From Hyphomicrobiaceae bacterium (lineage in GTDB: Bacteria; Pseudomonadota; Alphaproteobacteria; Rhizobiales; Hyphomicrobiaceae), in NCBI GenBank assembly GCA_022844275.1, contig JALHMB010000001.1, positions 310,001 through 374,000 of the forward strand: 64,000 nucleotides of DNA, written 5' to 3'. How positions within the stretch are numbered: position 1 is the stretch's first letter; the number at the start of each line of letters is the position of its first letter. Shown here piece after piece: positions 11,856-61,897 of the stretch. The position numbers were made by a program, and so were the translations under genes. The notes beneath the pieces are model-generated. The model was not told the DNA's origin. It did not search any database and saw nothing but the letters and a program-made list of their open reading frames with translations.

Positions 11856-11865
11856 GGCGCATTCA

Positions 11866-11940
11866 CGCCTTCGGCGCGAGCGAGGCTAGCCTCGTGCTCC
11901 ATCGGGAGGGACACCCTCCCGAACCCACCCGCCTTTTGAA
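11866..11940 (+). repeat. Dispersed hairpin element, copy A
   Basis: Begins ten bases after the ETF-QO stop. Hairpins in order: CGCC-TTCG-GGCG type, CGAGGCTAGCCTCG, and CGGGAGGG-ACA-CCCTCCCG, then CCACCCGCCTTTT. It is the same module order as copies B, C and D. Its orientation makes the T-run the transcript end of the upstream gene. Confidence 0.8.
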
Positions 11941-37646: not shown

Positions 37647-37937
37647 TCCAAATGCCCGATCTCGTAGCGTCGCTGTGCAGCATGAGCTGGGAGACCGGCA
37701 GGCCAATACCCAGGCCGAGGAATCAGGGCTCACAATATGTCAGGCTATCAGCGGCGGGAGGCCATCAAAACCCGGTCGTCGTGCAGTGCGGGATGGTCCG
37801 CGCCGCGCTCCCTGCTGCCGAGTTGACAATGACGGGCCAATATCCGAAAAAACCAAACATGGGGTTCTCCGCGACGACCTCGTGAGGCGCAAGCCCAATG
37901 TTCGCGTCCCAACGCCTCATTCGAGGAAGGACGCGCC

Positions 37938-38756
37938 ATGCCATCTCCAACCGAAATTTCTGCTGCCCAACTCGCTCGCCTCGTCGGCCTGCCGACCGCG
38001 CCTGCGATCATCGACGTCCGCACCGACGAGGACTTCGCGGCGGCGCCGCGGCTGATCCCCGGCTCCGTGCGCCGAGACCCGTTCCATGCGGCCGCGTGGT
38101 CTAAAAGCCTCGCCGACCGAAATGCCGTCGTCGTATGCCAGAAGGGCCTGAAGCTCAGTCAGGGTGCTGCGGCCTTGCTGCGCCACGAAGGTGTGCAGGC
38201 GGAGACGCTCGAGGGCGGGTTCGTCGGCTGGCACGAGGCGGGGCTGCCTACGGTCAATGCTGCCAAGCTGCCGCCACGCGATGCCCAGGGACGGACGGTG
38301 TGGGTCACGCGCGGACGGCCGAAGATCGATCGCATTGCCTGTCCCTGGCTGGTCCGCCGCTTTGTCGACCCGGATGCGGTCTTCCTCTTCGTGTCGCCAT
38401 CGGAAGTGAACGCCGTGGCCGAGCGCTTTGCCGCTACGCCCTTCGATATCGAGGGCGTCTTCTGGAGCCATCGCGGCGATCGCTGTACGTTCGACACCAT
38501 GCTCAGCGAACTCGGCCTCGCCGACACGGCCCTCAAACAACTGGCGACGATCGTGCGTGGCGCGGACACGGCGCGCATGGACCTCGCGCCGGAAGCCGCC
38601 GGACTGCTGGCCGTATCGCTCGGCTTCTCGCGCATGTACCGTGATGATCTCGCTCAGCTCGAGGCTGCGATGGTGATATACGACGGCTTCTATCGCTGGT
38701 GCCGTGACGCCAGCGATGAGACGCACAACTGGCCCTCTCCAAAGGTCAAGGCATAG
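37938..38756 (+). CDS. chrB: Rhodanese - ChrB-domain fusion (chromate resistance)
   Basis: Two-domain protein of 272 aa. Residues 1 to about 105 form a rhodanese domain: PAIIDVRTDEDFAAAPRLIPGSVRRDP and the active-site loop VVVCQKGLKLSQG with the Cys. Residues about 110-272 match the ChrB C-terminal domain: VTRGRPKIDRIACPWLVRRFVDP, FDIEGVFWSHRGDRCTFD. It lies 11 bases upstream of chrA. The classical ChrB N-terminal region is replaced by the rhodanese. A function in chromate reduction or sensing is inferred from family and neighbour; chrB is used in the broad sense. Confidence 0.85.
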   Translation: MPSPTEISAAQLARLVGLPTAPAIIDVRTDEDFAAAPRLIPGSVRRDPFHAAAWSKSLADRNAVVVCQKGLKLSQGAAALLRHEGVQAETLEGGFVGWHEAGLPTVNAAKLPPRDAQGRTVWVTRGRPKIDRIACPWLVRRFVDPDAVFLFVSPSEVNAVAERFAATPFDIEGVFWSHRGDRCTFDTMLSELGLADTALKQLATIVRGADTARMDLAPEAAGLLAVSLGFSRMYRDDLAQLEAAMVIYDGFYRWCRDASDETHNWPSPKVKA

Positions 38757-42870: not shown

Positions 42871-43665
42871 ATGCTGCTCAAGGACAAAATCGCGATCGTC
42901 ACAGGTGCCGGGCAGGGCATCGGCCAAGCCTGTGCGCTGAGGCTCGCGCGTGAAGGCGCCAAGATCGTCATCGCGGACGTCAATGACGAGGCGGGCAAGG
43001 CTGTCGCGGAGAGCATCCGCAAAAACGGCGGCGGTGCCGATTTCGTCGACTGCGACGTGTCGGAAAAGCTCGACGTGCACAATATGATCGCCAAGGCACT
43101 CGAGGCGCACGGCCGCATCGACGTGCTCGTGAACAATGCCGGCATCGTCGACGATGCACCGTTTCTCGATTTGCCCTCCGAGGAGTTCGACCGCATTCTG
43201 AGCGTGAACCTCAAGGGCGCGTTCCTTGCGGGGCAGGCGGCGGCGCGACAGATGGTCAAACAGGGGCCGCGCAAGGACGGCGGCTCGCCTGGCGCGATCG
43301 TCAACATGAGCTCGGTGAATTCGGTGTTCGCGCTCCCTGATCACGTCGCGTACTCGGTGTCGAAGGGTGGACTTTCACAACTTACGAAGGCCATGGCGAT
43401 CGCGCTTGCACCGCACGGCATCCGCGTGAATGCGGTCGGCCCCGGCACGATCGAGACGCCGCTGCTCGCTGGCGTCGTGAAGGACGAGGCTTTCCGCAAG
43501 AAGGTGCTCTCGCGCACGCCGCTCGGCCGCGTCGGGCAGCCGGAGGAGATCGCGGCGATCGTCGCGTGGCTCGCGAGCGACGAGGCGAGCTACGTCACGG
43601 GCACCACGGTCTTCGCCGATGGTGGGCGCCTACCGCTCAACTACGTGATGCCCGAAAAGTCTTAA
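42871..43665 (+). CDS. SDR-family oxidoreductase
   Basis: Classical short-chain dehydrogenase/reductase of 264 aa. Motifs: cofactor-binding VTGAGQGIGQACAL, NNAGIVDDAPF, the catalytic Ser region NMSSVNSVF and YSVSKGGLSQLTKAMA (YxxxK). ADVNDE at the end of the second strand carries an acidic residue, favouring NAD over NADP. The ATG follows AGGAAG; the longer track start runs into maeB. Substrate unknown. The stop merges with the T-run of dispersed repeat D. Confidence 0.9.
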   Translation: MLLKDKIAIVTGAGQGIGQACALRLAREGAKIVIADVNDEAGKAVAESIRKNGGGADFVDCDVSEKLDVHNMIAKALEAHGRIDVLVNNAGIVDDAPFLDLPSEEFDRILSVNLKGAFLAGQAAARQMVKQGPRKDGGSPGAIVNMSSVNSVFALPDHVAYSVSKGGLSQLTKAMAIALAPHGIRVNAVGPGTIETPLLAGVVKDEAFRKKVLSRTPLGRVGQPEEIAAIVAWLASDEASYVTGTTVFADGGRLPLNYVMPEKS

Positions 43666-43738
43666 AAAGCGGGGGCTCCGGGGGTGTCCTCCGGCTGGGT
43701 GCGCGAGGGCTGGCCCTCGCTCGCGCTGAAAGCGCGAT
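43664..43738 (-). repeat. Dispersed hairpin element, copy D
   Basis: Minus-strand orientation: directly after the MFS stop comes CGCGCTTTCAGCGCG, then GCGAGGGCCAGCCCTCGC, then CCGGAGG-ACA-CCCCCGG, then CCCCCGCTTTTT. The T-run overlaps the stop codon of the convergent SDR gene, so it fills the whole intergenic space. Confidence 0.8.
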
Positions 43739-49021: not shown

Positions 49022-49145
49022 TTCGCGCTTTCAGCGCGAGAGGGGCCGCTTGTCTCTTGCGCGCCTCTGGCGCGACCCCTTCAACCCCGCATCGTGCCGG
49101 AGGCGCGTCTTCGACGCGACGGACACCCTGCACCCCCGTCTTTTA
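49022..49145 (+). repeat. Dispersed hairpin element, divergent copy E
   Basis: Starts with TCGCGCTTTCAGCGCGAG, identical over 18 bases to copy D, continues with further GCGC-loop-GCGC hairpins (GCGCGCCTCTGGCGCG, GGCGCGTCTTCGACGCG), and ends GGACACCCTGCACCCCCGTCTTTT. It is longer than the others and, unlike them, does not follow a same-strand stop codon. It lies between nagZ and the SPOR gene. Confidence 0.55.
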
Positions 49146-49272
49146 TGACTTGTAGAGACGCACGGGAAGCGTCGCAGCAGGCTCGCCCCGCGGCCATAGC
49201 GCCACGCTTGGAGGCGATAGCACTTTCCCCGGCAGGCCGCGGCACTCAAGCCAACAAACCCGCGGCACTTGA

Positions 49273-58404: not shown

Positions 58405-58488
58405 TAGTGTGATGATCGAGAAATTCGCCACATCTCGCGGCGCGGCGCCGAGCGAATTTCTCGATCTGAACCACACTAAGAGATTTGA
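58405..58488. repeat. Long inverted repeat 1 upstream of secG
   Basis: TAGTGTGATGATCGAGAAATTCG (58405-58427) pairs with CGAATTTCTCGAT...ACACTA (58453-58488): 13 perfect inner pairs (ATCGAGAAATTCG) and paired TAGTGTG/CACACTA ends, with a few unpaired bases between. It encloses a GC-rich centre. It has the same terminal hexamers as the next repeat. Confidence 0.75.
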
Positions 58489-58493
58489 GATCC

Positions 58494-58569
58494 TAGTGTC
58501 CCTATTGATTCCGAAGTTCGCTCGGGACACCAGCATCGATGTTAGGCGAACTTCGGAATCGGGACACTA
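58494..58569. repeat. Long inverted repeat 2 ending at the secG start codon
   Basis: TAGTGTCCC-TATT-GATTCCGAAGTTCGC on the left pairs with GCGAACTTCGGAATCGGGACACTA on the right; only the TATT insertion breaks the pairing. The right arm ends one base before the secG ATG, so the ribosome-binding region lies inside the arm. Either an RNA hairpin over the start or a small palindromic element. Confidence 0.8.
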
Positions 58570-58570
58570 G

Positions 58571-61560: not shown

Positions 61561-61640
61561 GTCGCGCCTTCGGCGCGGGCGAGGGCTAGCACTCGCGCTC
61601 CCAACCGGGGGACACCCCCGGAGCCCCCGCCTTTTTGAAA
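61561..61640 (+). repeat. Dispersed hairpin element, copy B
   Basis: Six bases after the TSUP stop: CGCGCCTTCGGCGCG, GCGAGGGCTAGCACTCGC, CCGGGGG-ACA-CCCCCGG, CCCCCGCCTTTTTGAAA. The third stem keeps pairing although its bases differ from those of copies A and C. Confidence 0.8.
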
Positions 61641-61669: not shown

Positions 61670-61784
61670 CCTTCTCCCCGTTCTTACGGGGAGAAGGTTA
61701 GGATGAGGGGCGGGAACTTGCGCTGACGTTTGCGTATGCCGCCGCCCCTCACCCTCGCCCTCTCCCCGCACGCAGGGAGAGGGG
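61670..61784. repeat. REP-like doublet
   Basis: Two hairpins in opposite orientation: CCTTCTCCCCG/CGGGGAGAAGG (61670-61697) and CCCTCTCCC/GGGAGAGGG (61758-61783). They are joined by complementary GAGGGGCGG (61705-61713) and CCGCCCCTC (61742-61750). This is the layout of a REP pair (BIME-like) between convergent genes; the CTCTCCCC core recurs at 34.8 kb. Confidence 0.75.
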
Positions 61785-61818
61785 ATTCTGGTGCGCTCGC
61801 GACAAGCACTTCGATCAT

Positions 61819-61897
61819 AAAGGCGGGTGGGTTTCGGGAGGGTGTCCCTCCCGATTGGGGTCAGGGGCGAAAGCCCCGTCGCGCCGCGAGGCGCGAG
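61819..61897 (-). repeat. Dispersed hairpin element, copy C
   Basis: Minus-strand orientation, starting directly after the pntB stop: CGCGCCTCGCGGCGCG, then GGGGC-TTTC-GCCCC in place of the GAGGGC hairpin, then CGGGAGGG-ACA-CCCTCCCG, then CCACCCGCCTTT. With copy B and the REP doublet it fills the convergent 342-base space 61556-61897. Confidence 0.8.

Follow-up and report, generated by a model that had tools for sequence, protein, structure and literature searches.

A probable REP/BIME-like family of three-hairpin repeats with BoxC-like triplex potential at gene 3' junctions in a Hyphomicrobiaceae lineage

Four copies (A, D, B, and C) of a dispersed three-hairpin element lie in the window, the whole 64,000-nt stretch of DNA that was analyzed, beside the genes for ETF-QO, MFS, TauE/TSUP, and pntB, respectively. 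The copies exist as given in the preliminary description, their first hairpins begin within the 0–10 nt past a stop codon reported there, and the neighboring genes are, as it stated, unrelated to one another (Table 1). Its claim that each copy reads in the direction of its gene holds for copy D with respect to the MFS gene but fails with respect to the facing SDR gene, whose stop codon is overlapped in antisense by the tail of copy D. Each of the four copies has a more stable fold than all, or almost all, of its 200 dinucleotide-shuffled versions (z -3.1 to -5.4). Copies B and C together make up a single inverted unit that encloses a BoxC-like pair. A chrB-a RNA and a second dispersed repeat are also present in the window.

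Table 1. Positions of the repeat copies, their parts, and other features in the window
Feature	Position	Strand	Description
Copy A, A-type arm	11863..11940	+	Three hairpins, C-rich tail, T4; 81.4 bits; hairpin 1 at 7 nt past ETF-QO stop
Copy A hairpin 1	11863..11879	+	TCACGCC-TTC-GGCGCGA
Copy A hairpin 2	11880..11895	+	GCGAGG-CTAG-CCTCGT
Copy A hairpin 3	11902..11922	+	TCGGGAGGG-ACA-CCCTCCCGA
Copy A tail	11924..11937	+	CCCACCCGCCTTTT; CCCACCC = GGGTGGG on the opposite strand
chrB-a RNA (RF03078)	37856-37940		Above gathering score
Copy D, third hairpin B-type	43661..43737	-	74.1 bits; hairpin 1 at 1 nt past MFS stop
SDR stop TAA in copy D tail	43663-43665		Facing gene, overlapped in antisense
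Degenerate fifth copy	49023..49148	+	B model, 35.7 bits, E 0.00028; not after any stop in its own direction
secG-type dispersed repeat	58405-58570		~166 bp; contains a pair of long imperfect palindromes; immediately upstream of secG
Copy B, B-type arm	61562..61638	+	75.6 bits; hairpin 1 at 6 nt past TSUP (TauE/TSUP gene) stop
BoxC-like (TM_ECO-like) motif 1	61670..61709	+	Second loop TTA; flanked by copies B and C; pattern from PMC4666352
BoxC-like motif 2	61746..61783	-	Inverted relative to motif 1; between copies B and C
Copy C, A-type arm	61815..61896	-	Second hairpin GGGGC-TTTC-GCCCC; 89.6 bits; hairpin 1 at 1 nt past pntB stop

Each arm is built as hairpin 1, hairpin 2, hairpin 3, a C-rich tail, and a T-run. 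A-type arms end in CGGGAGGG-ACA-CCCTCCCG followed by CCCACCCGCCTTTTAT, and B-type arms, whose second hairpin is often ACAGGGC-TGCC-GCCCTGT, end in CCGGGGG-ACA-CCCCCGG followed by CCCCCGTCTTTTAT. The two types usually occur as inverted pairs, either tail-to-tail or head-to-head with a common hairpin 1; compact head-to-head units measure approximately 135–165 bp, and a BoxC-like pair sits in the middle of the unit in some pairs. An insertion of GCATGCCTCTGGCATGCC within hairpin 2 was seen in some arms (L013, L015, L016, and L031).

A BLAST search of the whole genome matched copy A at 43 places, and two covariance models were built from aligned copies: R1 for A-type arms and R2 for B-type arms. 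With the R1 model, 150 candidates from the 6.08-Mb genome were scored, which gave a lower bound of 96 arms (E 0.01). At E 1e-6 in a search of 40 genomes, it found 76 arms in the own genome and similar numbers in the two congeners with good assemblies (G002, 89; G003, 76), while two other congeners had 7 and 15. In the same 40 genomes, eight other Hyphomicrobiaceae genera carried one to six arms each and other families carried none, and a broader sample of 199 genomes from the order, screened with stricter filters, gave a match in the own genome only. One exact pattern was found among named genomes in Hyphomicrobium and Hyphomicrobiaceae records and in MAGs labeled just Rhizobiales or Pseudomonadota; no match was obtained with copy A in phage records or with one exact pattern in viral contigs. 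For the B-C unit, the listed plasmid matches come from Sinorhizobium and Rhizobium and are confined to its BoxC-like middle. Rfam returned weak sub-threshold matches and nothing above a gathering score. Judged from these sequence matches, the repeat family is restricted to a lineage of Hyphomicrobium-like bacteria. No arms were found in contig C1 past ~495 kb, a half with lower GC, of which two 20-kb samples match G002/G003 partly or not at all; this suggests that the arm family resides in the shared part of the genome, and C1 495–1017 kb looks partly accessory. BoxC-like motifs are likewise absent from this ~520-kb part of C1.

The statistics, including those on placement, draw on contig C1, a 220-kb part of C2, and individual further pieces, with genes defined by our own codon-usage calls instead of a standard annotation. 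The examined arm loci all lie between called genes. On C1 and 220 kb of C2, convergent genes flank 13 of 18 clusters, or 14 of 20 loci once weaker arms are added, compared with a background of 77 among 569 intergenic regions longer than 80 bp; none of the 18 clusters lies between divergent genes. Of 30 own arms, 16 have a hairpin 1 that starts at most 20 nt past a same-direction stop, where random placement predicts 3.1% (p 6e-17); for G002 and G003 together, the count is 33 of 68 arms against a predicted 4.7% (p 9e-26). The convergent preference is also seen in unrelated BoxC-like repeats (7 of 12 loci), which argues for a general landing zone. The secG-type repeat has no such preference (2 of 13 loci). 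This repeat occurs at 13 loci in 1.24 Mb of the own genome, mostly between same-direction genes, and has dozens of matches in four congeners, mostly at 80–90% identity. A further repeat with GCGGGCTGCTGGGAAGAGG...CCCGCGGC arms occupies the same kind of intergenic region as the arms (L127, L129, L150, and own-genome C1 positions 405514 and 487358). Even in some same-direction intergenic regions the arms lie tightly behind the stop, which may hint at a role for them in the upstream mRNA. At two sites, the SDR junction of copy D and L149 near 3408, the A-rich tail of the element provides the adjoining gene with its stop codon, and relatives without the element end those genes by their own stop.

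Orthologous sites differ between species. The ETF-QO site is without an element in G001 and G004, where just 7 bp separate the convergent stops; G003 has a different inverted arm plus other repeats there, and in G002 the two genes are apart with an arm beside each. The arm at the SDR-MFS site, with the tail carrying the SDR stop codon, is common to the own genome and G002, and the SDR gene ends in its own TAG in G003 and G004. The TSUP-pntB site has decayed arms in G002 and G004 and is rearranged in G003. In selected pieces, 11 syntenic congener element sites were compared, of which 6 are filled in the own genome and 5 were scored empty, some of the latter carrying BoxC-like repeats instead. 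Since empty sites can have ~7 bp between convergent stops, the stop proximity of the arms largely follows from insertion into tiny gaps. Such presence/absence differences are consistent with mobility, and loss can explain some of them. A dispersed family with a conserved fold, strong enrichment at stop codons, and species differences in presence and absence is thus supported.

Of 20 element regions, 4 break synteny with G002 or G003; of the 299 other regions, 2 do so (p 1.6e-4), and when the comparison is limited to convergent regions, 1 of 43 (p 0.03). Three of the four element-region breaks fall at one locus near C1 405 kb, leaving few independent events, one non-element break has an arm on the own genome's side, and the enrichment weakened when an unselected 400-kb stretch was added. 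The association of arms with rearrangement breakpoints is suggestive only.

All three helices show strong covariation. In 69 own arms, 95.3% of the cells pair, double changes occur at 17 of 22 pairs, and 136 cells have a double change compared with 33 in shuffles; in 80 distinct congener arms, 98.3% pair and 174 cells have a double change compared with 42, all of these figures being biased upward by alignments fitted to the structure and by the relatedness of the copies. The third-stem difference between copies A and C and copy B had been described as a compensatory change; this contrast separates the two arm subfamilies, whereas genuine double changes are present in all three stems. The change had been taken to argue for selection on structure. 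Transcript selection would tolerate G-U over A-C, and one-sided departures comprise 26 G-U and 31 A-C cells (p 0.60). Selection at the RNA level is thus not demonstrated by the covariation, although this is a small test (57 cells) on related copies and is compatible with moderate RNA selection. DNA-level maintenance or a master-copy history fits the palindromes as well.

These counts bear on the alternative that the arms are a 3'-UTR element selected for its action on mRNA, in which the hairpins would block 3'-to-5' exonucleases or, at most 15 nt from the stop, slow ribosomes and tune expression, effects that have been reported for E. coli REPs. Agreeing with it, 15 of the 30 arms in the own genome and 32 of the 68 in congeners start at most 15 nt from a same-direction stop; the very stable predicted folds (median arm MFE ~-40 kcal/mol) and published work on REPs close to stop codons (PMC5082802, PMC12306157) also agree with it. 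However, G-U is not in excess over A-C, arms in head-to-head units are antisense to their neighbors, several orthologous sites are empty or hold decayed copies, and the neighbor genes in the window are unrelated. We therefore regard an mRNA element as possible but unlikely.

REPINs are tied to RAYT transposases. A non-autonomous transposon of the MITE or REPIN type, moved by a specific transposase with AAGTCATAAAAG...CTTTTATGACTT as terminal inverted repeats, would account for the compact inverted units with common ends and for the presence/absence between species; like REPINs, the arm units contain two inverted palindromes. However, no Y1_Tnp gene (PF01797; RAYT/IS200-type), the sole transposase family searched, was found in the own genome or four congeners, and an identity with RAYT/REPIN was rejected on this basis. 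Target-site duplications were also not consistent among 34 units: a direct repeat of at least 4 bp was present at the edges in 4 of 24 and 0 of 10 (1.6 and 0 with permuted flanks). This alternative, which overlaps the REP/BIME-like explanation and goes beyond it in specifying the type of enzyme, is doubtful.

The end of the arm was also compared with triplex-forming repeats. On the antisense strand, the tail and hairpin 3 read GGGTGGG-TTC-GGGAGGG-TGT-CCCTCCC, and in copy A the GGGTGGG of the tail would fit as a reverse-Hoogsteen third strand against GGGAGGG. Triads without mismatch were obtained in 85 of 105 arms compared with 1.1% of shuffled tails, a match that comes essentially from two subfamilies of non-independent copies. 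A reading of the tail as a second copy of a Watson-Crick arm from hairpin 3 was rejected, since the base at the center of the tail is mostly A and T would be needed; on the antisense strand, this base is T in 50, A in 4, C in 7, and G in 1. Hairpin 3 and the C-rich tail are thus compatible in sequence with an intrastrand-triplex architecture, which may form in the DNA. BoxC/TM_ECO repeats of E. coli are intergenic, G/C-rich, and triplex-capable, have type A inverted with type B, and are linked to rearranged loci (Holder et al. 2015, PMC4666352). The arms are like them in being intergenic, G/C-rich, and triplex-compatible, in having inverted A and B types, and in lying at some rearranged loci, and BoxC-like pairs are nested in some of the units. 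In contrast, the arms have another sequence and order, a class I layout on the antisense strand, 5–7 triads instead of 9, and a preference for 3' ends, whereas E. coli TM_ECO motifs are more often upstream of ORFs (PMC4666352). The strict BoxC/TM_ECO pattern (CCCTCNCCC N3-6 GGGNGAGGG N3 GGGNGAGGG), to which the arms do not conform, has 0 matches in 1.24 Mb; relaxing it to a longer first loop gave 19 BoxC-like motifs, including the two between copies B and C, and one BoxC-like stretch had no blastn match in E. coli genomes. It is rather improbable that the family is a RAYT-free REP-like element whose triplex-motif ends drive copying and rearrangement, with the palindromes kept perfect at the DNA level, e.g., in single-stranded or replication intermediates.

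A mobile terminator was one of the two roles first suggested for these elements. A mobile bidirectional intrinsic terminator for convergent genes is very improbable despite the convergent placement and T3–T5 within ~10 nt past a GC-rich hairpin, because the median distance from the last paired base to the T-run is 9 nt (pairing comes within 1 nt of the T-run in just 26 of 133 arms and, among the four window copies, the tail pairs right beside it in the copy B fold only), a terminator scan at the B-C unit found nothing, head-to-head units face their neighbors in the wrong orientation, and orthologous convergent pairs manage without the element; a canonical intrinsic terminator was rejected on the first two of these grounds. 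Earlier work, as cited in PMC4666352, describes PIT/BoxC elements as being without promoter or terminator activity.

REP/BIME repeats, including the CGTC and GTAG families, are multi-copy extragenic palindromes that form inverted dimers between convergent or same-direction genes; REPs often lie <20 bp from ORF 3' ends, and their termini sometimes provide the stop codon (Di Nocera et al. 2013, PMC3733652). The arms share with them the many extragenic palindromes, the inverted pairs, the convergent and 3' sites, and a tail that at times serves as a stop codon. They are unlike REP/BIME in having three hairpins and a C-rich tail per arm, unlike GTAG REPs in that their consensus lacks a GTAG tag and a RAYT gene was not found, and unlike CGTC REPs, compared by description, in having no A-T-led stem, the bases of hairpins 2 and 3 being mainly G-C and hairpin 1 having one U-A pair. 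Br-REP1 of Bradyrhizobium forms three stem-loops in the overlapping 3'-UTRs of convergent genes and varies in abundance by species (Hahn et al. 2016, PMC5082802). The arms resemble it in the three stem-loops, the convergent 3' ends, and the species-dependent abundance, but a search of the window for its consensus CCGGAATCTCGAGATTCCGG, allowing up to 3 mismatches, found nothing. As with Rfam, this agrees with the initial failure to match the elements to a named family.

In summary, the arms probably (at roughly 0.7) form a REP/BIME-like family of extragenic palindromic repeats that is specific to this lineage, has BoxC-like triplex potential, and is maintained mainly at gene 3' junctions. The family is apparently undescribed, being found neither in Rfam nor in the literature searched, within the already known REP/BIME kind. 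It would spread or be copied as DNA, and arms would survive mainly where they are least harmful, at 3' junctions and above all in very short convergent gaps, so that they start a few bases past stop codons; purifying selection may thus be the cause of their placement. Hairpin 3 and the tail are arranged on the antisense strand like a purine-motif intrastrand triplex, similar to BoxC/TM_ECO, and the arms may affect mRNA stability, translation, or rearrangement. The comparison of G-U with A-C counts is a simple way to separate RNA from DNA constraint on covarying repeat hairpins. As the genus has several sequenced species, filled and empty orthologous sites are directly comparable, and in the composite unit of this family, located at some rearrangement junctions, REP-like repeats are joined to BoxC-like triplex repeats.
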